From Sulfurimonas marina (GTDB lineage Bacteria; Campylobacterota; Campylobacteria; Campylobacterales; Sulfurimonadaceae), in assembly GCF_014905095.1 (NCBI RefSeq), contig NZ_CP041165.1:2108001-2172000 (forward strand): a stretch of 64,000 bases of DNA, given 5' to 3'. Shown one piece after another: positions 24,757-40,223 of the stretch. The notes beneath the pieces were generated by a model. The model did not search any database. It saw only the letters and a list, made by a program, of their open reading frames with translations, and was not told where the DNA came from. How positions within the stretch are numbered: position 1 is the stretch's first letter; each line of letters opens with the position of its first letter. A program made the position numbers and the translations under genes.

Positions 24757-24951
24757 TTATGGAACAGCTGTTGGTGTAACACCGGCACTAGTAAATGATG
24801 CATCTGCAGCTGTTTGAATATCACTTTTTCTAGTATCTAAATATGTATTTAACCCTGCTACTAAGCCAACACCCACTACAACTAAAAGTAATGCAACTAA
24901 AACTCCACTCATCCCTTTTTGAGACTTTAAACGCTTGAAAATCTTTTTCAA
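24757..24951 (-). CDS. flp: Flp-type pilin (type IVb), atypical
   Basis: A 64-residue protein: a basic leader (MKKIFKRLKSQKG), then a hydrophobic helix (MSGVLVALLLVVVGVGLVAGL) and a short polar tail, the plan of Flp pilins. Cleavage is expected after Gly13. The mature protein would then start MSGVL, lacking the Glu at +5 that Flp pilins normally have. It starts at TTG with GGAG upstream. It is the last gene of the Tad locus, separated from the secretin gene by 106 nt with its own likely control region. Confidence 0.75.
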   Translation of the reverse strand: MKKIFKRLKSQKGMSGVLVALLLVVVGVGLVAGLNTYLDTRKSDIQTAADASFTSAGVTPTAVP

Positions 24952-25057: not shown

Positions 25058-26764
25058 TTATAATTTATTTGTGTATTTTTTTGAGATCCATAAACTATTT
25101 TCTAACTTCTCACACTCTGTCAAACAATCTTCATCGATCTTTAACCATTCAATCCCATCTATTAGCTTTTCATCGCCCACTTTAAATTTATGTCCCGCTT
25201 TCCAAACTGAGACTTTTTGAGAGTCTGTCGTTGAGGGATTATCACGTACATAAATGTTTTCGATATTCACTTCATATATACCAGTTTCCTCTACTTTTTT
25301 ATTCTCCTCTTCGGAAACTTCAATAATATCCTCTGAAACAGCTTCTTTTTCCTCCTCTTCAATTACGGGTATAACCTCATCGTTTATAGTTGTATTTTGC
25401 TCCTCTACAATTACAGGCTGTTGTATTACAACAGTATCGTTTTTAACTGCCAAAGGTTCTTTTTGAACTTCTATAGTGCTATCCATATCTAAAAGTGTAT
25501 CGTGCAGTTTAGTACTATTGTTTGTAAAATCTCTATAGTATCGTCTGTCATCTACATTTTCGTTTGCGTCAACTATTTCAGGGACTAAGAAGAAAAGAAG
25601 ATCATTCCCTTGAGTACTTTTTACCGAATGGGTAAAAAAGTCTCCAACTACAGGAATATCTCCAAGAAGTGGAAGTTTCTCTTCTTGATCAACATCCTCT
25701 GAATGGAGTCGTCCTCCAAGTGCAATCACTTGTCCAGATTTAACAACAACATTTGTCTTAATGTTTTTACTTACAAAGGAGGGTACGAATATATTGTCCC
25801 CCAGCTGTACATCATGCTCTTTATTTGTATCGAATTCACTATCTTTAATGTCTACATCGATATACATATAGCCATCTTTTTCCATAAACTTTGTATTTAA
25901 TACCAATGTCAAACCGTATTCTCTTTCCGCTACATTGATTGTTGGTGCATATCCTGCATTTTGCGTCATCCCTACAGGTATATATACTTCACCACCTACA
26001 CGAAACGAAGCATTTTTATCTTCGGTTGAGATTAGCACGGTATCATCTAAAATTTTACCTATCCCCTTCTCTTCCAAAAAGTTCAACATCCCTGTTACAG
26101 ATGTTCCAGTTGAAGCAGTAAATCTTCCAGTCTCATCTAAAAGCCATCCACTAAAAGTTGCCCAATTGCTTGCTGCTGAATTTATAGATAATCCACTATG
26201 TTTACTAAAAAAGTCCAGTCCTGTCACTCCACCAAGATCTCTTGCTTTTTTATTGTTAATCTCAACCAAATAAAGCTTAGTTCTAATCATTTTATTTACT
26301 TTATTTGTCTCTGTCAGATCCATTGTTGTGTTAAGATCGACTCCTGCATTTTCAAGAAGCTTGTAAACTCTGTTTTTATTGTGAGGATCTTTAAAAGTTC
26401 CAGTCATTACTGTTGAGCCGTCCCCTACTTTATTAAGCCTCAAACTAGGTTCAATAAAGTTAACCATCTTTTGTATGTACCCTAAGTTTTTGTTCACATA
26501 TACATGATAATTTTGCATGCTGCCGTCTCTATAAACTAACAGTATAGATGTTGTCCCTGTTTCTTTACCAAATATCTTTAAAAATCTACTAGAGCCTTCA
26601 CCTTTGAGTAAAGAGACATTAATCATATCTTTATTACCGACAACTACTTTTTTTATAGTTTTATGCAATGGCACTATATTATATTCATTATCAAATACAA
26701 CCAAATCATTTGCGTAAAGTTGCATACTTATCGCTAAAAACACTAACGCTAAAATTTTCTTCAT
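25058..26764 (-). CDS. rcpA: Tad pilus secretin (RcpA/CpaC) with C-terminal SH3-like domain
   Basis: A 568-residue protein with a signal peptide, an N-terminal pilus-assembly secretin domain (about 20-130) and a secretin core (about 190-400; VKSGQVIALGGRLHSED and LPLLGDIPVVGDFF are typical). It forms the outer-membrane pore of the Tad pilus. After the core comes an acidic, Val/Glu-rich linker (about 430-495) and a terminal SH3b-like module (YVRDNPS...VSVWKAGHKFKV...WLKI...LWISKKY). That addition is not a usual part of CpaC and may anchor the pore to peptidoglycan. Confidence 0.9.
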   Translation of the reverse strand: MKKILALVFLAISMQLYANDLVVFDNEYNIVPLHKTIKKVVVGNKDMINVSLLKGEGSSRFLKIFGKETGTTSILLVYRDGSMQNYHVYVNKNLGYIQKMVNFIEPSLRLNKVGDGSTVMTGTFKDPHNKNRVYKLLENAGVDLNTTMDLTETNKVNKMIRTKLYLVEINNKKARDLGGVTGLDFFSKHSGLSINSAASNWATFSGWLLDETGRFTASTGTSVTGMLNFLEEKGIGKILDDTVLISTEDKNASFRVGGEVYIPVGMTQNAGYAPTINVAEREYGLTLVLNTKFMEKDGYMYIDVDIKDSEFDTNKEHDVQLGDNIFVPSFVSKNIKTNVVVKSGQVIALGGRLHSEDVDQEEKLPLLGDIPVVGDFFTHSVKSTQGNDLLFFLVPEIVDANENVDDRRYYRDFTNNSTKLHDTLLDMDSTIEVQKEPLAVKNDTVVIQQPVIVEEQNTTINDEVIPVIEEEEKEAVSEDIIEVSEEENKKVEETGIYEVNIENIYVRDNPSTTDSQKVSVWKAGHKFKVGDEKLIDGIEWLKIDEDCLTECEKLENSLWISKKYTNKL

Positions 26765-26776
26765 TCCATTTTCCCC

Positions 26777-27229
26777 TTATTCACATGTAATAACTACAGA
26801 TCCATTTTGGTCAACATATGAATATGTATTCATCTGCGTTGTTATAGTTTTATTTTTTAAATATGTTCCAGTATATGTGTATTGCACTGTTACATCTATC
26901 TCCCCACTGTTAGCAGCATTTACTGGTGTAGGAAAAGTTATATTTGTTTGATTTGGACAGAGTGAATTGACTCTAGTTAAATAGTTGTCATAATCTGCAC
27001 TATCACTAAAATCTCGTAAATCTTCTCTTGATATCAAAAAATCAGATGTAAGATTTGCAATCAATTTAAGTTTATAATCTGCTTGCATAGCCGACCAATA
27101 ATCAAGTAAAATTACTACAATAAAAGCTAAAGTCGGCAACACAACTAAAAGTGTCGCCATAATTTGCGGTAATCCTAAACTACCGTTTCTAAATAAACGT
27201 TTATTGTTCATAAGAGATACTTGCCTCAT
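26777..27229 (-). CDS. TadE-like minor pseudopilin
   Basis: A 150-residue protein with a short basic leader, a likely prepilin cleavage point after Gly (NGSLG, then LPQIMATLLVVLPTLAFIVV), one membrane helix and a C-terminal periplasmic part with two Cys. This is the plan of TadE/TadF pseudopilins that prime Tad pilus assembly. Its start overlaps the CpaB gene by 29 nt. The assignment rests on architecture and location. Confidence 0.65.
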   Translation of the reverse strand: MRQVSLMNNKRLFRNGSLGLPQIMATLLVVLPTLAFIVVILLDYWSAMQADYKLKLIANLTSDFLISREDLRDFSDSADYDNYLTRVNSLCPNQTNITFPTPVNAANSGEIDVTVQYTYTGTYLKNKTITTQMNTYSYVDQNGSVVITCE

Positions 27230-28088
27230 CTAAACGTTTTATAGCTCTTCTTTGCTTTACTGTAGCAACATAATCTGCCAACATCTTCTCTTTTTTCTTT
27301 TGGATATCTTCATCTTGTACTTTAGAACACTTTACAATCCATAGGTGTCCACTATTACCTTTTGTATTATAAACTCGGTTACCGTTAAGTGCTTGTGTTT
27401 TATAGTAAAGCATTAAAAAGTTTTTTATATCTTTTGGAGAGATCTCTAAAATAATATTTTGTGCAAATACAGGTTTACCTTCCACATATGATGAGAGATA
27501 ACTGTTTGTCATTTTTCCATTAGCTACAAAAGAGTCTATAGTAATATTTAGAGCAATATATTTTGTTTTAAAATCGATTTCACGACCCTTTTGAGTATTT
27601 TCGACAGAAACAATATCTATCTTATCCCCTTTTCTAAGTGATGTATCTATATTTTTAAAAACAGATATTGGAATTGAAACAGTATCAAATACTTCATCTT
27701 TTAACTCAGGTTTCTCTTGTTGTACTTTACTTTTTATCACTACACTACTGTTTTGTTCTTGCGGTTTGACGAGTGCTATTTTCTGCTCACGGATCGGCTC
27801 ATTTTTGAATATATCTACAACTGCATATCTTCCTATAATTTCACTTGCCGTTAAGGGCATCCCTACAAGATACTCTTGAGGTAACTTTGCTTTTTTAATA
27901 GTATTTGCACTTAAAAGTTCCCCTTTTTGAATATCTCTTGTTGTAACAAATATTTCAACAAACTTTACTTTGTTCACTTGATTTTCAAGTGCACTCTGCT
28001 TTGAGTACATCAATAAAGCAAGTGATGTTGTAAAAAGTACTAAACCAATTAAAATTAGTACCACCATTCTCATCTGTTTATTTTTCAT
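27201..28088 (-). CDS. cpaB: Tad pilus assembly protein CpaB/RcpC
   Basis: A 295-residue protein: an N-terminal membrane anchor (MVVLILIGLVLFTTSLALLMY), then an SAF domain (about 45-105: VTTRDIQKGELLSANTIKKAKLP) and a CpaB C-terminal domain. RcpC/CpaB supports the secretin in the periplasm. It lies between tadC and the TadE-like gene on the same strand. Confidence 0.88.
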   Translation of the reverse strand: MKNKQMRMVVLILIGLVLFTTSLALLMYSKQSALENQVNKVKFVEIFVTTRDIQKGELLSANTIKKAKLPQEYLVGMPLTASEIIGRYAVVDIFKNEPIREQKIALVKPQEQNSSVVIKSKVQQEKPELKDEVFDTVSIPISVFKNIDTSLRKGDKIDIVSVENTQKGREIDFKTKYIALNITIDSFVANGKMTNSYLSSYVEGKPVFAQNIILEISPKDIKNFLMLYYKTQALNGNRVYNTKGNSGHLWIVKCSKVQDEDIQKKKEKMLADYVATVKQRRAIKRLDEASISYEQ

Positions 28089-28101: not shown

Positions 28102-28941
28102 TTAAAATCCCGGCATCAACACATCTGCAGCCATCGGAAATGCAACCATTGCTATCACTGCAGGTAAAATAAATAGAAACATAATAAATGTGATGTTTAT
28201 ATTCATCGTTGCTGCTTTTTTTTCAATACCTAAGATCTCATTTTGTTTAATTTCAACGGCCTGATTTTCAAAAACTGACTTTACACCGATACCTGTTTCT
28301 TCAGATAGACGCATAAAACCGGCAATTGACGCTATCGCTTCAGAACCTGTTCTAGAAGCAAGGTTTCTACATGCTACTTCATTTCCATAAGTAATAAACT
28401 CATATTTAAAGATTTTAGATTCCTCAATAAGATCCTTACCTAAAACTTCCGTCGCATCACTTGTAACCTTATCTATGGCATTATTAAGTCCCCCACCACC
28501 TTCTAAGATAATAATTAGCAGATCAATAAAAACAGCAAGATCGTTATCGATTCTTTTGATTCTTGCTTTCATCTGTTCATCTATATATAAAAAAGGAGCT
28601 AGACCCATTATTCCCATACCTATAATTACAAGCAAAATAGTAAATAGTTGTCCCATATCTAAAATAAACGGGAGCGCAATAATTGAAGCCCCTGCTAAAA
28701 CTGAAGCTATTAAAATCTCATTAAACTCTTTTCTTGTAAGTCCTGCACGAGTCAGTTTTACTTTAAATTCAGCCTTTTTACTGTTTTCCACTTTATTCAT
28801 TACAGAATTTGCATTATCCAACTGAAAAATATATTCTATAAGCTTATAGTGTTTATATCTGATCTTGATCAGCCAAAAAATTCCAAAGCCGATAACCAGG
28901 ATCGATACAAACAACAAAGCTAATGCAAGTCCCCCTATCAT
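28102..28941 (-). CDS. tadC: Tad inner-membrane platform protein TadC
   Basis: A 279-residue GspF/T2SS-F-type protein with membrane helices near the N terminus, at about 75-130 and at the C terminus, and the core sequence LASRTGSEAIASIAGFMRLSEETGIGVKSVFENQA. TadB and TadC form the inner-membrane platform on which TadA acts. Its start overlaps the tadB stop by 4 nt. Confidence 0.9.
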   Translation of the reverse strand: MIGGLALALLFVSILVIGFGIFWLIKIRYKHYKLIEYIFQLDNANSVMNKVENSKKAEFKVKLTRAGLTRKEFNEILIASVLAGASIIALPFILDMGQLFTILLVIIGMGIMGLAPFLYIDEQMKARIKRIDNDLAVFIDLLIIILEGGGGLNNAIDKVTSDATEVLGKDLIEESKIFKYEFITYGNEVACRNLASRTGSEAIASIAGFMRLSEETGIGVKSVFENQAVEIKQNEILGIEKKAATMNINITFIMFLFILPAVIAMVAFPMAADVLMPGF

Positions 28942-29888
28942 TTATCTACCTTTGTAATAAAACTATTAGCAAGCATCCCTAAAAAGACCCATATCATGAT
29001 TCCTAGCAATTGAAATCTTCCAAATTCTGATTCCATAAAGTACTGATGAATTTTTCCATCAAAATTACCGTTTAATATAAAATATAAAAGAATTGCAATA
29101 CCCACTACTACATAAGAACCAAAGTTCCCTTCCCTTGTTAAAACATCAACTTTATCTTGCATCTTTTTTCTGTAACTTATCGTCTCTTCAACCTTAGCCA
29201 ATGTATTTGAGAACTGACCACCACTTTCTCTACCAATTTTGATGGCAAGTGCAAAGATCTTTAACTCTTTTGAATCAACATGTTTATACATATTTTCAAA
29301 AGCTTGTACTTCACCTACTGTATTTTTTTCTTGAAAAAAATCTTGAAATACCTCTTTTAAAAGCTTTGAACTTGAAACAGAAATTGACTTAAAAAGCGCC
29401 TGCTCAAAACCTATACCGTTTTTCATCATCTTTACAAGAACTGAAATAGCTACAGCTAAAGCTCTGTTAAACTCTTTTTTTCTACGTCTTATAACCATTT
29501 TAAGAAACATATATGTGAGTAATAATGCGATTGGTGTACCTATAATAAATCCTGACCAATGTTGTAAAAATAAAACAAGTAAAAAATCTACTATTACTAT
29601 AAACATCAGTACAAAAATTAAAAATAACTCTATAGATATTTTTATACCACCCAAAAAAAGGTATGCACGTAATTTTGCCCATAATGACTGTTTATCATTT
29701 TTCTCTTTTGCTGCATTCAATAAAGCCTCAACTTCAGAATCTTTAGAAAAAACAACATCTTTGACATAATTTAAATGCATCATTCTTTGGTACTGTGTAT
29801 AAAAGATATACAGTAACATGGTACCGCTAGCACTTAAAACCAATAAAGCAAATATTTCTATGTAACTCATGATTGCAGGTTTGGCCAT
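28938..29888 (-). CDS. tadB: Tad inner-membrane platform protein TadB
   Basis: A 316-residue T2SS-F family protein with an N-terminal helix, a central pair near 90-130 and C-terminal helices. The conserved cytoplasmic part KIGRESGGQFSNTLAKVEETISYRKKMQDKV fits TadB. It overlaps tadA by 22 nt and tadC by 4 nt, so the platform genes are tightly coupled to the motor. Confidence 0.9.
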   Translation of the reverse strand: MAKPAIMSYIEIFALLVLSASGTMLLYIFYTQYQRMMHLNYVKDVVFSKDSEVEALLNAAKEKNDKQSLWAKLRAYLFLGGIKISIELFLIFVLMFIVIVDFLLVLFLQHWSGFIIGTPIALLLTYMFLKMVIRRRKKEFNRALAVAISVLVKMMKNGIGFEQALFKSISVSSSKLLKEVFQDFFQEKNTVGEVQAFENMYKHVDSKELKIFALAIKIGRESGGQFSNTLAKVEETISYRKKMQDKVDVLTREGNFGSYVVVGIAILLYFILNGNFDGKIHQYFMESEFGRFQLLGIMIWVFLGMLANSFITKVDK

Positions 29889-31435
29889 CTTTCTAAAATA
29901 TTTTTTGTACCACCAAATGATGCTTGAACAATCTCATTCATATAATTGGTTTTCCAACCACACATTCTACTTGGATGAAAATCTTTTAACTCTTTGATAA
30001 TCATCTCTTTCGTCACAACAAAATCATTATCAAAAATACGATTTTCAAGTACTACACCATGTTGCAGCATCTTATTTACAGCTCTTGTTGAAGCAGAAAC
30101 GACTTTAAAGTTTCCGGAAGAATCCATTGGATTATCATTGTTAATCACACGAGAAAATTCAAATACATCAAGCATTGACACAACACCGTTATCTTCAACC
30201 CTTTTCTCAGGTTCTGATATTTTAACTATACGTCTTCTTCCATCCGGGAAACGGACAATCTGAACAATTAGATCAACTGCAGAGATAATTTGTGAACGAA
30301 CAAAATTCATATTTGCCGTAGGACGAGCTTCAAGAAACATATTCTCTATCCTTACAATAGCTTCTTTAGTATCATCTGCGTGAATTGTAGTCATTGAACC
30401 CGGATGTCCAGTATTCATTGCATTGAGCATTGTTACAATCTCTGGTCCACGACACTCTCCAACAATGATTCTCCTTGGACTTGAACGGAGTGCTGTACGT
30501 AAAAGGGTTTCAATAGTAACTGCACCTGCACCCTCTTCGTTTTCGGGACGTGCTTCAAAAGAACGGATAGAGTGGCATGGTAACTGCGGCTTCATCTCTT
30601 TTGTATCTTCAATAGTTAAAAGCTGATCTCTCTCATCAATAAAACGCGTAACTGCATTTAAAAAAGTGGTCTTACCGCTTGATGTCCCGCCCGAAACTAC
30701 AATATTTAGTTTCCCTTTAACCGCTTTGATCAAAAAGTATGCCATTTTAAGATCAATCATATGAGAATCTATCAAACTCTCAAACAATAAAGGGATTTCA
30801 CGAAACTTTCTTACAGTTACGTAAGAACCCGGATTACCATCTTTATCAATATTTGCTGCAATTGGTGGAATTTGTATCTCTATACGGGAACCATCTGGAA
30901 GTTTTGCTGAAGCAATAGGAGAGGATTCATCAACTTTTCTATTTGACTCATTGAGCATACGGGAGATGATTTTCCTTAAATCCTCTTCACTTCTAAAACG
31001 AAACGGTGTCGTAAGTGTCTGTCCTTCATAAATCACATCTATATAGTCTTTTGTATTAACAATAATATCATTTAAACCATTACCAGCTAAACGTGCGATT
31101 GTTGTAATTGGTCCATAATACAAAAGATTATCAATTAAAAAGTCTGCAATCTCACCCTTTAAAGATGTTTTTGGGATACTAAACTCACTGATATGCTTTA
31201 AAACAACTTCTCGTACCATTTTCTCTGTAAGTTCAGCTTTTACATTTAACTTCTCTATAAATCTATCATATATATGGCAAGCAAGCTCATAATATTGTTC
31301 ATCTCTATATAAAAGCGGAAAACAAAAACTTGTACATGACAAGTCATCAACAACTATATCTTCTTCTGGAACTTTTGCTTCAACATCACTCTCTAAAGCG
31401 TTTGAAAAGCCTCTTATTTTTTCTCTTAAAGCCAC
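29867..31435 (-). CDS. tadA: Tad pilus ATPase TadA/CpaF
   Basis: A 522-residue secretion ATPase. Walker A is GGTSSGKTT near residue 250; a Walker B and His-box region includes RIIVGECRG and TGHPGSMTTIHADD. Tad systems use this single ATPase for extension and retraction. It overlaps tadZ upstream and tadB downstream. Confidence 0.95.
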   Translation of the reverse strand: MALREKIRGFSNALESDVEAKVPEEDIVVDDLSCTSFCFPLLYRDEQYYELACHIYDRFIEKLNVKAELTEKMVREVVLKHISEFSIPKTSLKGEIADFLIDNLLYYGPITTIARLAGNGLNDIIVNTKDYIDVIYEGQTLTTPFRFRSEEDLRKIISRMLNESNRKVDESSPIASAKLPDGSRIEIQIPPIAANIDKDGNPGSYVTVRKFREIPLLFESLIDSHMIDLKMAYFLIKAVKGKLNIVVSGGTSSGKTTFLNAVTRFIDERDQLLTIEDTKEMKPQLPCHSIRSFEARPENEEGAGAVTIETLLRTALRSSPRRIIVGECRGPEIVTMLNAMNTGHPGSMTTIHADDTKEAIVRIENMFLEARPTANMNFVRSQIISAVDLIVQIVRFPDGRRRIVKISEPEKRVEDNGVVSMLDVFEFSRVINNDNPMDSSGNFKVVSASTRAVNKMLQHGVVLENRIFDNDFVVTKEMIIKELKDFHPSRMCGWKTNYMNEIVQASFGGTKNILERWPNLQS

Positions 31436-32619
31436 TCTTTAACCCTTGAAAAAATAGATTTGTTATGCACTTTTTCTATCTGTGTTACTTCTCTATCAAA
31501 GATAAAAAATTTATTGATCATCACTCTGAGCCCTTCCATAAAAGGTGCTTCAGGATATACGTCACACACTAACTTTGCTTCATTCCAACACTCTCTTAAA
31601 TGAAGTGCATCATTAGGAAGTGAATGTGCTATCTCAAAGTTATGTTTTAACCCTTTTGATAAAATCTTTTTAGCCTCTTCGTGCGTTACACTTCCATAAG
31701 CATCAGCACGATTTGCAATAATATGCGCTTTGTTATACCAACCGCTTCGGTCAATAATATCTATATATGTTTTAAGTATTGACATCGATGGTATATTAAA
31801 CTCTGTAATTACAAAAATATCATCTGCCAACTCTTGAATATCAATCTCCAAATCTTGGTCTTTAAACACACCTACATCGATTAAAATAAAATCAAAAAGC
31901 TCTTTAATCTGCATAATAAAGTTCAGAAATACTTGAATATTTTCAGTGCGTCCAAACTCCTCTTTATCTGTATGTTTTTGAATACCAGGAACAAAAAAAA
32001 GATTATTGCTCAATTTGATCAGACCATGATTATAAAGTTCATCTACATCAAGACTCTGTGTACTAGCAATATCTATGATAGTTTTAGAGGGTTGAATAAC
32101 ATCAAAAAAAAGATTTGAGATAGCTTTTGTATCTGTAAAATCCAAAAACAATACATTTTTATCTAAATGCTCATCTGCTATCGTTTTTGCAAGATTCATA
32201 GTAATCGTTGTTGTTCCTACACCACCATTGATACCTGTAAAGACAGAAACATTACTGTTCCCCTTTCTTTGTTTAATTACATTCTGGGAATTTGTAATAT
32301 ATTGAATAATATCATCAGAATCTATCTGTTCATAATTAAGATAAATATCTACACCTAGTTTTCCGGCTAATAATGAGAAAGCAACATCATCTTTCCCAAT
32401 AACAATCATATATACATTGTTTGAAAAGTTCATAGTCTCAAGAGCTTGGATATCTTCTAAATTTTCCACTTTGTATAGTAAAACAATATCACGATTTCTA
32501 TTAGCTGCATAGAAGCTTATAAATTCTTCAATATTTGGAAAGTTTTGCAGTTCTGTATATTCATCCTGGAGATCAAAACAACACTCCTCATGATTTGGTG
32601 AAACATATGCTATAACCAT
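31426..32619 (-). CDS. tadZ: Tad pilus localisation protein TadZ/CpaE
   Basis: A 397-residue protein with an N-terminal receiver-like domain (about 1-115) and a ParA/MinD-type ATPase domain with the deviant Walker A GINGGVGTTTITMNLA near 130. TadZ/CpaE marks the pole or site of Tad assembly. Its end overlaps tadA. Confidence 0.9.
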   Translation of the reverse strand: MVIAYVSPNHEECCFDLQDEYTELQNFPNIEEFISFYAANRNRDIVLLYKVENLEDIQALETMNFSNNVYMIVIGKDDVAFSLLAGKLGVDIYLNYEQIDSDDIIQYITNSQNVIKQRKGNSNVSVFTGINGGVGTTTITMNLAKTIADEHLDKNVLFLDFTDTKAISNLFFDVIQPSKTIIDIASTQSLDVDELYNHGLIKLSNNLFFVPGIQKHTDKEEFGRTENIQVFLNFIMQIKELFDFILIDVGVFKDQDLEIDIQELADDIFVITEFNIPSMSILKTYIDIIDRSGWYNKAHIIANRADAYGSVTHEEAKKILSKGLKHNFEIAHSLPNDALHLRECWNEAKLVCDVYPEAPFMEGLRVMINKFFIFDREVTQIEKVHNKSIFSRVKEWL

Positions 32620-32621
32620 CT

Positions 32622-34397
32622 TTACTCGCCTCTTTTAATATCTAATAATTTATATGTTGATGTTGTCCCTGCTGAGCCAGGAGAAAATCCTTCTACCTCT
32701 TTAAGATGTAAAATCAAGCCTTTATGCACTTTTTCTTTATACTCATATACGCTGTATCCTTCATCGCTTAAGAGGTTGTCTAGTTGTGCATCATATGTCT
32801 CTCCACCCTCACTCGTTCCTTGTAAAAAGCTTGTAAAACTTGTAAAGGCATTAAAAATAGTCTCGAAAAGACCTTTTTTCTGCTCCCCTTGATTACGCTT
32901 ACACCAGTCAAGCCAATCGTCTGTAGATACATTTACAATGTCATGTGTACTAAACCAAACAGTTTTTGTCGTTACATTTAGTTCCGAATAAGCATCACTT
33001 CCACTACTGCCAAAAAAGCTACTGAAAAAACCACCGTCATCCATATCAAACTCTGTATTTGTCTCTATACCTTTTGTAAAAGTTTGTTTGCCTGACGGCC
33101 ATGACATGATAAAAAAACTACCACTTGACTGCACAGTACATGATTCCACTTCCGTTCCGTAAATACTTTCTAGGCCTAGTAAAGAAAAATGTTTAAAATC
33201 TGTTACCTTTATACCATTTGTCTCTATAAATGTAAGGGGCATCGGATTTATAAAATCAAATTCGGCTGAAACCATTTCAGTAATATTGTTAGATTCTTCC
33301 CCAAAGAAAAACCTGAACATAGAACTTGCCATAAATGTAATTGGTTTAAAAAGTTCAGATACTACCGTTGTCTTTCCACTAGTAGCATCTAATTGTGTTT
33401 TCTCACTAAGATAGTTATGCCCATCCAAGTTGCCTGCAAGTGTTAAGAGAGTTGTTTCCGTATCTTCTACAACTGAATCAGACTTTACTTTGATGTTTGT
33501 CTCATTATTAATGAATGGCATAAACATTGAAAGACCAAAAAAGCTGATCCCTTTACATGTTAAAGAGTCAGGATCGTAACTAAAAAACAATCCGTTACAT
33601 CCTGTTGTCTCTTCTATAATCTGAGAGTTATAATCAAGTAATGAAACACGTTTTGTACTATCTGCTGTATTTATTTCATTTGTATAAACAGCACTCTCTT
33701 TTTCAAGAAGATACTCTTTTTGATGTCCAAAAGTGATATTTGCTATATATCTGTTTCTTTGCTCTGGAGACTCACTTCCTGTCGTATATGTATTAATATC
33801 TTTTGAGAAAAAACTGGTAAACATCGATACAAGGTATCCAAAAAATGTTGTTGGCTTTTCACTTGCAGCATCTTCTGCAGTACCTTCACTATAATATTTT
33901 CCATCTCTAAATACATCTAGTGCATAAAATGCATCATTATTTGTTGAGTTATAGTTTAAAGCAGCATCAAAAGGGATTCTATATTCTCCTGTTGGAAGTG
34001 GGTTACCTATACCGTCTAACTGCATATCGGGATTATTTAAAATACCTTGATTGATCAAGAAAGGTTTTTGTCCCGAACACCCCTGAGAATCAAGTCCCCC
34101 ATCTTCACATGCATAACTACTCTCTACATTTACACGTACTTTTCCAGAAGTAGCAATTAGATCAAAATTTGTTTCTTCAGAACCGGAACCATTCCATGAG
34201 AATTTTGTCCAAAAATGTTTTACTTTAAAATTTGTTGTTTTTATAGAAACTTCTTGATCATACAAACTGTTCCCATACTTATCTTCCCCAAAATAAGTTT
34301 CATTTCCAAATGTCACAGTTGTATCTGTTTTCTCTGCTAACAAAGTTGTACCTAAAACTATCATTGACAATATTATCGCTTTTATTTTCAACTTCAC
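32622..34397 (-). CDS. Large secreted protein of unknown family in the Tad locus
   Basis: A 591-residue protein with a signal peptide (IKAIILSMIVLGTTLLA). I recognise no domain. It is rich in Thr, Ser, Asn and Phe, with repeated short hydrophobic patches of the form FFGxxxxMFxxFF (for example near 190-205, 280-295, 355-370 and 455-465) and paired Cys. It lies 2 nt upstream of tadZ, so it is part of the pilus operon. It could be a tip adhesin or a replacement for TadG, which I do not see here. The start is GTG, or the TTG two codons later, which is better spaced from GGGGAG. Confidence 0.75.
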   Translation of the reverse strand: MKLKIKAIILSMIVLGTTLLAEKTDTTVTFGNETYFGEDKYGNSLYDQEVSIKTTNFKVKHFWTKFSWNGSGSEETNFDLIATSGKVRVNVESSYACEDGGLDSQGCSGQKPFLINQGILNNPDMQLDGIGNPLPTGEYRIPFDAALNYNSTNNDAFYALDVFRDGKYYSEGTAEDAASEKPTTFFGYLVSMFTSFFSKDINTYTTGSESPEQRNRYIANITFGHQKEYLLEKESAVYTNEINTADSTKRVSLLDYNSQIIEETTGCNGLFFSYDPDSLTCKGISFFGLSMFMPFINNETNIKVKSDSVVEDTETTLLTLAGNLDGHNYLSEKTQLDATSGKTTVVSELFKPITFMASSMFRFFFGEESNNITEMVSAEFDFINPMPLTFIETNGIKVTDFKHFSLLGLESIYGTEVESCTVQSSGSFFIMSWPSGKQTFTKGIETNTEFDMDDGGFFSSFFGSSGSDAYSELNVTTKTVWFSTHDIVNVSTDDWLDWCKRNQGEQKKGLFETIFNAFTSFTSFLQGTSEGGETYDAQLDNLLSDEGYSVYEYKEKVHKGLILHLKEVEGFSPGSAGTTSTYKLLDIKRGE

Positions 34398-34405
34398 TCT
34401 CCCCT

Positions 34406-34687
34406 TTATTCTATGTTATTTGAAACCATAATATATTCAATATAGGCATCAACTTTTTGATTGATCTCATCTTCACTTAAAGTAAGTCCCTGCTCTTTTG
34501 CTTCAGATTCAACTTTATGTCTATAACGGACAGCAGATATCAAAAGTTTCTCTTGAAGATGCTGTAAATTTGTGGCATCATTTACATCATGAAGGTTTTC
34601 ATTTGCACCCCCCATAAAAGCTATAAACCAAAATATAGCCATCACAGCGATCAACAATGGTACTAATGCTGCCGAAGCGTTTCTCAT
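34406..34687 (-). CDS. Small single-span membrane protein, possible Tad pseudopilin
   Basis: A 93-residue protein with one N-terminal hydrophobic helix (ALVPLLIAVMAIFWFIAFMGG) and a charged helical tail. Its place between the prepilin peptidase (4-nt overlap) and the large secreted protein suggests a minor pilin or assembly factor. No clear prepilin cleavage motif is seen. Confidence 0.6.
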   Translation of the reverse strand: MRNASAALVPLLIAVMAIFWFIAFMGGANENLHDVNDATNLQHLQEKLLISAVRYRHKVESEAKEQGLTLSEDEINQKVDAYIEYIMVSNNIE

Positions 34688-35082
34688 AAAATCCCTATCA
34701 TATATGCACTAAGTGCTGCCAAACTCATTGCCGGTGCAAAGGCAAACGATTTTCTATGTAACAAAGCTAAAATTAATAGGTGTATCACTCCTGAGAGTGC
34801 TATAAAAACACCAACTTGTTCTAAGCCCAAAAATAGTGCGCAAAAAGCACCAAACCTTATATCTCCACCACCAAAAACCATACCAAAGAGTATCGGTATT
34901 ATAAAGATAAAAACTACTAACCCTACGGCTATGAAGTCCGTCATTACCAGAGTCTCATTACTCCACTTTAATAAACCAATAAATAGTATTGCAGGAATAA
35001 TAATCTTATCCGGTATCAATCTTTTTTTATAATCAATATAGGAGACAATGCTTGCAATAAATATAAAAAAACTTAATAGCAA
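34684..35082 (-). CDS. tadV: Prepilin peptidase (TadV/CpaA, A24 family)
   Basis: A 132-residue polytopic membrane protein with the two aspartates of A24 peptidases, in YIDYKKRLIPDK near 17 and in GGGDIRFGA near 71-79. It should cleave the Flp leader and the pseudopilins. It is the first gene of the tad operon, starting at TTG with GGAG upstream. Confidence 0.9.
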   Translation of the reverse strand: MLLSFFIFIASIVSYIDYKKRLIPDKIIIPAILFIGLLKWSNETLVMTDFIAVGLVVFIFIIPILFGMVFGGGDIRFGAFCALFLGLEQVGVFIALSGVIHLLILALLHRKSFAFAPAMSLAALSAYMIGIL

Positions 35083-39458: not shown

Positions 39459-39899
39459 TTAATTTTTATCTCCGAAAATCATGTTATCCAATGAAAATTT
39501 TCCACCTCCATGGGATAAAAAGATAAATAAAAACAACATATAATAAAGAGGAATCTCAAAACCATTATCTCCTGCACTAAAACCATGTGGCAGATGCACT
39601 GTAATGATAGCTACGATCATAATAACAATTAACGGTATCGAAATAGCTCTTGTAAAGAGTCCCAATGTTAACAAGACAACTCCTGTTATCTCAGTAGTTG
39701 CTGCCATATAAGCATTTAATGTGGGCATTGGTATCCCAATAGTACCAAACCATTCAGCAACGGCCGAGATATCACTCCACTTCATCATAGCCGGTTCATA
39801 AAAACCGTATGCAAGTATCAACCTTGCGAACAATAATGACAGAGACTTGAGATATTCAGCAAGTCTCGAAAATTCAAGGTATACATCTTTGATAAGCAT
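39459..39899 (-). CDS. DoxX family membrane protein
   Basis: A 146-residue protein with four membrane helices and the DoxX patterns LLFARLILAYGFYEPAMMKW and EITGVVLLTLGLFTRA. DoxX proteins are often encoded with redox or metal-stress genes and are a standard part of bufferin/HvfA-type operons. AGGAG precedes the ATG; it sits 24 nt after the GKCG-repeat peptide gene. Confidence 0.92.
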   Translation of the reverse strand: MLIKDVYLEFSRLAEYLKSLSLLFARLILAYGFYEPAMMKWSDISAVAEWFGTIGIPMPTLNAYMAATTEITGVVLLTLGLFTRAISIPLIVIMIVAIITVHLPHGFSAGDNGFEIPLYYMLFLFIFLSHGGGKFSLDNMIFGDKN

Positions 39900-39923: not shown

Positions 39924-40223
39924 TTACGATCCACATTTTCCTGCACCGCATTTCATACTTTTTTTAGACTCTTTTTTCTTCGCACCGCATTTGCCGTCAC
40001 GCTTCATCTCTCTGTTGTCCATCATCCCGTTACCGTTACCACATTTGCCATCACGCTTCATCATATTACTGTTACCGCATTTACCGTCACGCTTCATTTC
40101 CCTTTTTTCCATGTTACCGTTACCACATTTTCCCATGCCATTTTCCGCACTTAATGTAGTAGCACCAAACGCTACAAATAACATTGCCGAAGCGACTAAA
40201 CTCATTAATCCTACTCTTTTCAT
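39924..40223 (-). CDS. Secreted GKCG-repeat peptide, HvfA/bufferin-like candidate metallophore precursor
   Basis: A 99-residue protein: a signal peptide (first 26 residues, ending TLSA), then repeats of the form KRDGKCGNGNM. KCG occurs six times, five of them as GKCG, and Met, Lys and Gly dominate. This closely resembles HvfA/bufferin precursors, whose EGKCG cysteines are modified by a DUF692 (MNIO) enzyme to bind copper. DoxX follows, as in those operons, but no DUF692 or DUF2063 gene is in this window. A simple Met/Cys metal-binding protein is the alternative. AAGGA precedes the ATG. Confidence 0.7.
   Translation of the reverse strand: MKRVGLMSLVASAMLFVAFGATTLSAENGMGKCGNGNMEKREMKRDGKCGNSNMMKRDGKCGNGNGMMDNREMKRDGKCGAKKKESKKSMKCGAGKCGS
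39950..40140 (-). repeat. Degenerate in-frame tandem repeat encoding the KRDGKCG units
   Basis: About four imperfect repeats of 33-54 nt share the core CGTGACGGNAAATGCGG (transcribed strand). They keep frame and encode the metal-binding-like units of the secreted peptide. Unit number could vary between strains by slippage or recombination. Confidence 0.7.

Follow-up and report, generated by a model that had tools for sequence, protein, structure and literature searches.

Our analyses support the origin of the 591-codon gene by the splitting of a longer one, within the Tad operon of the window (the whole stretch of 64,000 nucleotides of Sulfurimonas marina DNA that was analysed). In the reading that we favour, with a probability of about 0.75, a gene for a TadG-like minor pilin of the Tad pilus underwent a single split in the common ancestor of the Tad clade of Sulfurimonas and Sulfuricurvum; the 591-codon gene encodes the part that is exported to the periplasm ('TadG-C'), and the adjacent 93-codon ORF the other part ('TadG-N'). 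Judged by their sequence profiles, the two gene families match consecutive parts of one fused TadG-like protein. The original prediction, made from the letters of the window, had noted that TadG was not seen; this holds at the level of Pfam models and is wrong in substance, because the split pair corresponds to the fused TadG-like minor pilin at the same operon step.

The gene belongs to one operon, in the order tadV, 93-codon ORF, 591-codon gene, tadZ, tadA, tadB, tadC, rcpC, a 150-aa TadE/F-type ORF, rcpA and a 64-codon Flp-like ORF, in which tadV, tadZ, tadA, rcpC and rcpA were assigned by Pfam matches above cut-off:

34684 to 35082, minus strand: TadV prepilin peptidase (PF01478)
34406 to 34687, minus strand: TadG-N-like gene, 93-codon ORF with a pilin-like helix, in ATGA overlap with tadV
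32622 to 34397, minus strand: TadG-C-like gene, 591-codon exported protein
31426 to 32619, minus strand: TadZ/CpaE-like ATPase (Pfam match above cut-off)
29867 to 31435, minus strand: TadA/CpaF ATPase (PF00437)
28938 to 29888, minus strand: TadB (T2SSF just under cut-off)
28102 to 28941, minus strand: TadC (T2SSF just under cut-off)
27201 to 28088, minus strand: RcpC/CpaB (SAF)
26777 to 27229, minus strand: candidate TadE/F-type small minor pilin of 150 aa (N-terminal helix and operon position, judged by eye; no Pfam match)
25058 to 26764, minus strand: RcpA/CpaC secretin (Pfam match above cut-off)
24757 to 24951, minus strand: candidate Flp-type major pilin of 64 codons, QKG|MSGVLVALLLVVVGVG (judged by eye; no Pfam match above cut-off)

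As originally noted, no TadD was found among the operon proteins scanned. RcpA carries a weak SH3-like tail on the secretin at residues 503-546 (E 0.012 and 0.11, below the cut-offs).

The frame at 32622-34397 on the minus strand is a real ORF of 591 codons from a GTG. The sequence AAGGGGAG ends 1 base before this GTG and 7 bases before a TTG two codons downstream (34391), and because of this spacing the TTG is the likelier start, which would give a protein of 589 aa. Several properties claimed for the gene were confirmed. It is the largest of the Tad operon, the next being RcpA with 568 aa; a Sec-type N-terminal signal peptide was recognised by eye in all 12 aligned members of the 591 family; and the FFG patches are truly repeated, with four occurrences against 0.35 expected (3 of 5000 shuffles as high). 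FF occurs nine times against 3.9 expected (11 of 2000 shuffles as high), and nine of the 12 split-family members are FF-rich (at most 16 of 2000 shuffles as high), as opposed to none of nine fused homologues. Six cysteines (97, 107, 267, 281, 420, 499) are invariant in all 12 members, and codon differences from genome G047 indicate purifying selection (dN 0.34, dS 1.78). The protein shows the following features:

34335 to 34397, minus strand: Sec-type signal peptide, residues 1-21, with cleavage after LLA placed by eye
34122 to 34268, minus strand: beta hairpin with the VSIKT..F..FWtkF motif, residues 44-92, aligning to the same motif of the fused TadG-like proteins
33726 to 34076, minus strand: CSGQKPFLIN ... 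FYALDv.RdgkYY ... RYIANI..G region, residues 108-224, of which the PF.IN and FY parts align to the fused proteins
33804 to 33848, minus strand: Phe-rich patch 1, FFGYLVSMFTSFFS, residues 184-198, conserved in position
33507 to 33542, minus strand: Phe/Met-rich patch 2, residues 286-297
33300 to 33359, minus strand: Phe/Met-rich patch 3, SELFKPITFMASSMFRFFFG region, residues 347-366, conserved in most members
33009 to 33032, minus strand: FFSSFFG patch 4, residues 456-463, not conserved

In the profile alignment, patch 1 has as its counterpart in the fused proteins a less hydrophobic helix, while patches 2 and 3 keep their positions in most split members and lack an aligned counterpart in the fused proteins. 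The idea that the Phe-rich patches are pure insertions was dropped because patch 1 matches this helix; it holds at most for patches 2-4.

The absence of any recognisable domain, as first noted, was upheld by searches of Pfam, NCBIfam, PHROGs and PADLOC and by a PDB sequence search, all without a match to the 591-aa protein. The Pfam models of Tad, TadE and vWA matched none of 12 family members; a vWF-type match, named in the original prediction as evidence that would count against it, was thus not found among these members, and the fused TadG-like proteins were likewise without a match to the three models. PF13400 matched none of the scanned operon proteins and none of the 101 genomes of a phylum sample, with Caulobacter positive and three of three scanned canonical plasmid TadGs matching as controls. 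No relatives of the 591-aa protein were found among viral contigs. Of the checks initially proposed, structure prediction yielded AlphaFold models of low confidence, both for the whole protein (pLDDT 63.3, pTM 0.55) and for residues 22-265 (pLDDT 65.2, pTM 0.51); comparison of both with the PDB by Foldseek and VIA-align reached no E value below 0.001 and Z scores of at most 5.3 and 4.2, and a BFVD fold search likewise had no E value below 0.001. A fold match was hardly to be expected, because a sequence search of the PDB with one Burkholderia TadG yielded no relative of TadG. Profile search, another of these checks, gave nothing with curated models and did match the fused TadG-like proteins once family profiles were used.

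A set of 652 ORFs from 16 loci served for hhalign comparison with both split families; 13 of these ORFs were flagged as TadG (four fused Campylobacterota proteins and nine canonical ones). For the 591 family (residues 22-265), the fused protein of L011/G075 ranked first of 652 (score 72.7, E 4.8e-10), the best ORF without a TadG flag scoring 22.1; the three other fused proteins took ranks 2, 5 and 6, at decoy level, and the canonical TadGs ranks 85-562. For the 93-aa family, three fused proteins occupied ranks 1-3 (scores 29.3, 26.8 and 25.6; best decoy 24.6) and the fourth rank 118. The matches follow one another along the fused chain: the 93-aa family covers its first ~60 residues and the 591-aa protein aligns to residues ~80-240. 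In profile-profile comparison with nine fused proteins the 591 family reached an E value of 1.2e-8 and the 93-aa family one of 9.7e-7, or 9.2e-5 under a different column setting, and the maxima of 100 shuffled controls were 24.8 (real score 73.9) and 26.3 (real score 34.5), respectively. When the G075 protein was left out, the scores of the 591 family under four choices of master remained at 47.7-60.6, the control maximum being 22.5 (60 shuffles each for two of the masters; 60.6 versus 21.5), and those of the 93-aa family at 32.2-33.7, with a control maximum of 20.0. The C-terminal parts of the split and fused families could not be aligned, so that the homology covers only residues ~35-200 of the 591-aa protein.

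These comparisons bear on two other explanations. The 591-aa protein might only share the operon slot and be a Tad accessory factor in its own right, for example a chaperone, a periplasmic gate like RcpB or a non-pilin adhesin at the tip like PilY1, with the 93-aa ORF alone as minor pilin; its own Sec signal, the lack of a pilin helix and of a Pfam match, and the position of rcpB, an unrelated gene, upstream of tadZ in canonical operons are all compatible with such a role. We consider this unlikely, however, since residues ~35-200 are homologous to the stretch that comes after the helix in the fused minor pilin, and no PilY1 or propeller family matched in Pfam. It is very unlikely that the resemblance to the fused proteins is due to chance and that the protein is something unrelated, a secreted adhesin or toxin-like protein confined to this family whose Phe-rich helices act on membranes: although its Phe/Met-rich segments are conserved and no curated family contains it, the profile scores lie far above those of the 652 decoys and the shuffled controls, and the 591 family is strictly linked to tadA.

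The link of the fused proteins to canonical TadG is weaker. A profile of nine fused sequences matched that of the N-termini of eight plasmid-borne TadGs in the PF13400 register, with a score of 26.5 at E 0.0075, where the best of 100 shuffles reached 17.2, and over the first 70 columns the single canonical TadGs took ranks 12, 15, 16, 23, 24, 33, 42, 57 and 143 of 652 (rank-sum p 1.7e-6, with two of the nine being near copies). The link to canonical PF13400 TadG is thus weak and suggestive at the sequence level, and for this reason we use the name 'TadG-like' rather than TadG. A profile match to a TadG-like protein, the other finding named at the outset as contrary evidence, was accordingly obtained for the Campylobacterota proteins, and in a weak and indirect form for the canonical ones. 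A Moraxella bovis plasmid carries an RHS-repeat gene directly after its Tad-type operon (L062, 13565-18115, plus strand).

The 591 family is confined to the Tad operons of Sulfurimonas, Sulfuricurvum and their near relatives. It was found in seven of 99 relatives (own genome counted), and a TadA of the same type in 11 of the 99; of the four genomes with this TadA and without the 591 family, three (G056, G029 and G060) have contigs that end before the site, that of G060 inside TadA, and the fourth (G075) has a different gene there. Relatives found in a collection of genome contigs (15 loci) all bear the names Sulfurimonas or Sulfuricurvum, except for one Helicobacteraceae and one Campylobacterales MAG, and split loci whose flanks were read show the order tadV, ~90-codon ORF, 591 gene, tadZ as far as the contigs reach. 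The gene of G075 encodes a single protein of 379 aa between tadV and tadZ, with a pilin-like N-terminal helix followed by PFLIN...FYPLEIPR. Likewise, single proteins of 354-387 aa adjoin tadV and/or tadZ in G253, G126 and G153, and others lie at the tadV-tadZ step in G417 (349 aa) and G423 (806 aa).

A TadA query (E 1e-60) was positive in 22 of the 398 genomes of the order, of which six have the split form, 14 the fused form, one a locus cut by a contig end and one a canonical tadDEFG locus. An HMM built from four fused sequences matched 17 of the 398 genomes; in G204, a genome of the split form, its match (E 0.0067) is the ~90-aa ORF directly upstream of the 591 homologue, and in G087 and G384 (E 4e-4 and 0.007) the matches lie inside 795-codon frames. 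In the own genome, the sole match of the nine-sequence fused HMM at E up to 10 falls inside the 591 ORF (E 1.48, not significant alone). In two genomes, G126 and G287, the contig with the fused gene is not the one with tadA. In G313 a fused tadG-like gene (L106, 3406-4377, plus strand) stands ~4.9 kb past the rcpA end of its Tad operon on the opposite strand, and tadV adjoins tadZ directly. TadZ itself has ~400 aa in split-type loci (window 31426-32619) versus ~530 aa in several fused-type loci, as follows:

L049 5259-6860; L106 15866-17473; L107 9829-11415; L108 9056-10645: longer TadZ in fused-type loci

The fused proteins of other Campylobacterota (L011, L047/L085, L048/L086, L049/L088, L107, L108) share with the split pair the operon position, an alignable helix region, the V.V..y...FW.kf hairpin and the PFaIN and FY motifs. 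They differ in forming one chain without a separate Sec signal and without FF enrichment, in a C-terminal part that does not align, and mostly in being shorter, with 314-387 aa in the nine aligned and 806 aa in one, the overall range being 314-806 residues. Another type of locus is found in G212, a Campylobacterota genome of another family, in which a separate, canonical-looking flp-tadV-rcpC-rcpA-tadZABCDEFG locus (L105, G212:C15:44000-63000; genes named by order and sequence rather than by family search) ends in a gene for 706 aa and is distinct from the Sulfurimonas-type Tad operon.

The TadA tree has 34 rows, 15 of them split, and these 15 constitute one clade (support 99/100). When rooted with four canonical TadAs, fused rows fall on both sides of the split clade, five of them joining it at 91/78, for which a single fission from a fused ancestor is the simplest reading; this root is less sure than the split clade because the outgroup branches are long.

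The small ORF is itself selected as a protein (dN 0.26, dS 2.34 against G047) and holds the pilin-type helix that is absent from the 591-aa chain with its Sec-type N-terminus. That both ORFs yield one protein through a programmed frameshift or stop read-through is scarcely credible: the two are adjacent, 8 nt apart in the window, but across 13 loci the gap runs from -8 to +13 nt in all three phases, which argues against a joining frameshift, and the second ORF comes with a ribosome-binding site and a signal peptide of its own.

Under the favoured reading, a gene split once into TadG-N and TadG-C, the pair would probably form a two-part tip of an adhesive Tad pilus, by analogy with known systems. 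TadG-N would supply the pilin helix and, as a presumed substrate of TadV, be held in the inner membrane, while TadG-C would be exported by Sec and stabilised by disulfides among the six conserved cysteines. TadG-C could then dock, without a covalent link, on TadG-N and on the small TadE/F-type pilin. This complex would prime the assembly of Flp and emerge by way of RcpA as the tip of the pilus, and there the variable C-terminal part, which includes the Phe-rich helices, may contact the surface. By the same analogy, the tip would consist of the 93-aa helix, the 591-aa head and the 150-aa TadE/F-type pilin. The proposal of a novel tip or surface component consequently survives in part: a tip role is the best supported and no curated family covers the protein, which is not, however, a stand-in for a missing TadG. 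It is conceivable, though doubtful, that since the fission the tip has been a module of its own, exported separately, docked without a covalent bond and perhaps able to be exchanged or shed, and that its Phe/Met-rich helices make it active on hydrophobic surfaces or membranes (those of elemental sulfur, minerals or other cells, for example), which would set it apart from the tips of the covalently joined relatives.

The nearest functional parallels are large minor pilins. The relevant sections of PMC12075869 present a model in which KilN/TadG forms the backbone of a tip of minor pilins that serves to prime the pilus and to display a variable module, and CpaL is a comparable tip candidate in the parts of PMC12607857 and PMC13170226 that concern it. 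Like both of these as there described, the split pair would constitute a large minor pilin with a variable C-terminal module, encoded in a tad locus and expected at the tip (PMC12075869, PMC12607857); in contrast to the pair, both carry the helix in the same chain (same sources), and CpaL has a vWA domain (PMC12607857) that Pfam did not find in the 12 members of the 591 family. PilY1, the type IVa tip protein, offers a further comparison, in that the 591-aa protein would likewise act as a non-pilin tip subunit held by minor pilins (PMC12607857, in part, and general background); PilY1 belongs to another system, without a family match to the 591-aa protein.

For the split architecture, the parallel is Geobacter PilA-N/PilA-C (GSU1496/GSU1497), for which gene fission was inferred in the passages concerned of PMC5174107. 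The Geobacter major pilin is described as heterodimeric in part of PMC11046646, a filament model disputed in part of PMC8844916. Both cases combine an adjacent short helix ORF with a helix-less globular partner, which in the Tad pair is exported and accompanied by one fused homologue in relatives; PilA-N/PilA-C is, by these accounts, a type IVa major pilin rather than a Tad minor pilin, and the likeness is one of architecture, with no homology claimed. In searches of the open-licence PMC literature, no description of a split TadG or split Tad minor pilin was seen among the matches listed. A Tad minor pilin divided between helix and head would add a second example of pilin gene fission to that of Geobacter PilA-N/PilA-C. 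Priming of the pilus by the helix would then be genetically separable from the function of the head at the tip, and this separability bears on the open question of the role of TadEFG at the tip. For curators, the results provide a basis for naming a family that none of the libraries used covers.

Elsewhere in the window, the minus-strand ORF at 39924-40223 encodes a 99-aa exported protein with repeated GKCG motifs, reminiscent of HvfA/bufferin-type metal-binding peptides. The enzyme expected for such peptides is MNIO, whose model (PF05114) had no match in the own genome. The ORF lies beside a DoxX-like ORF on the same strand (39459-39899).
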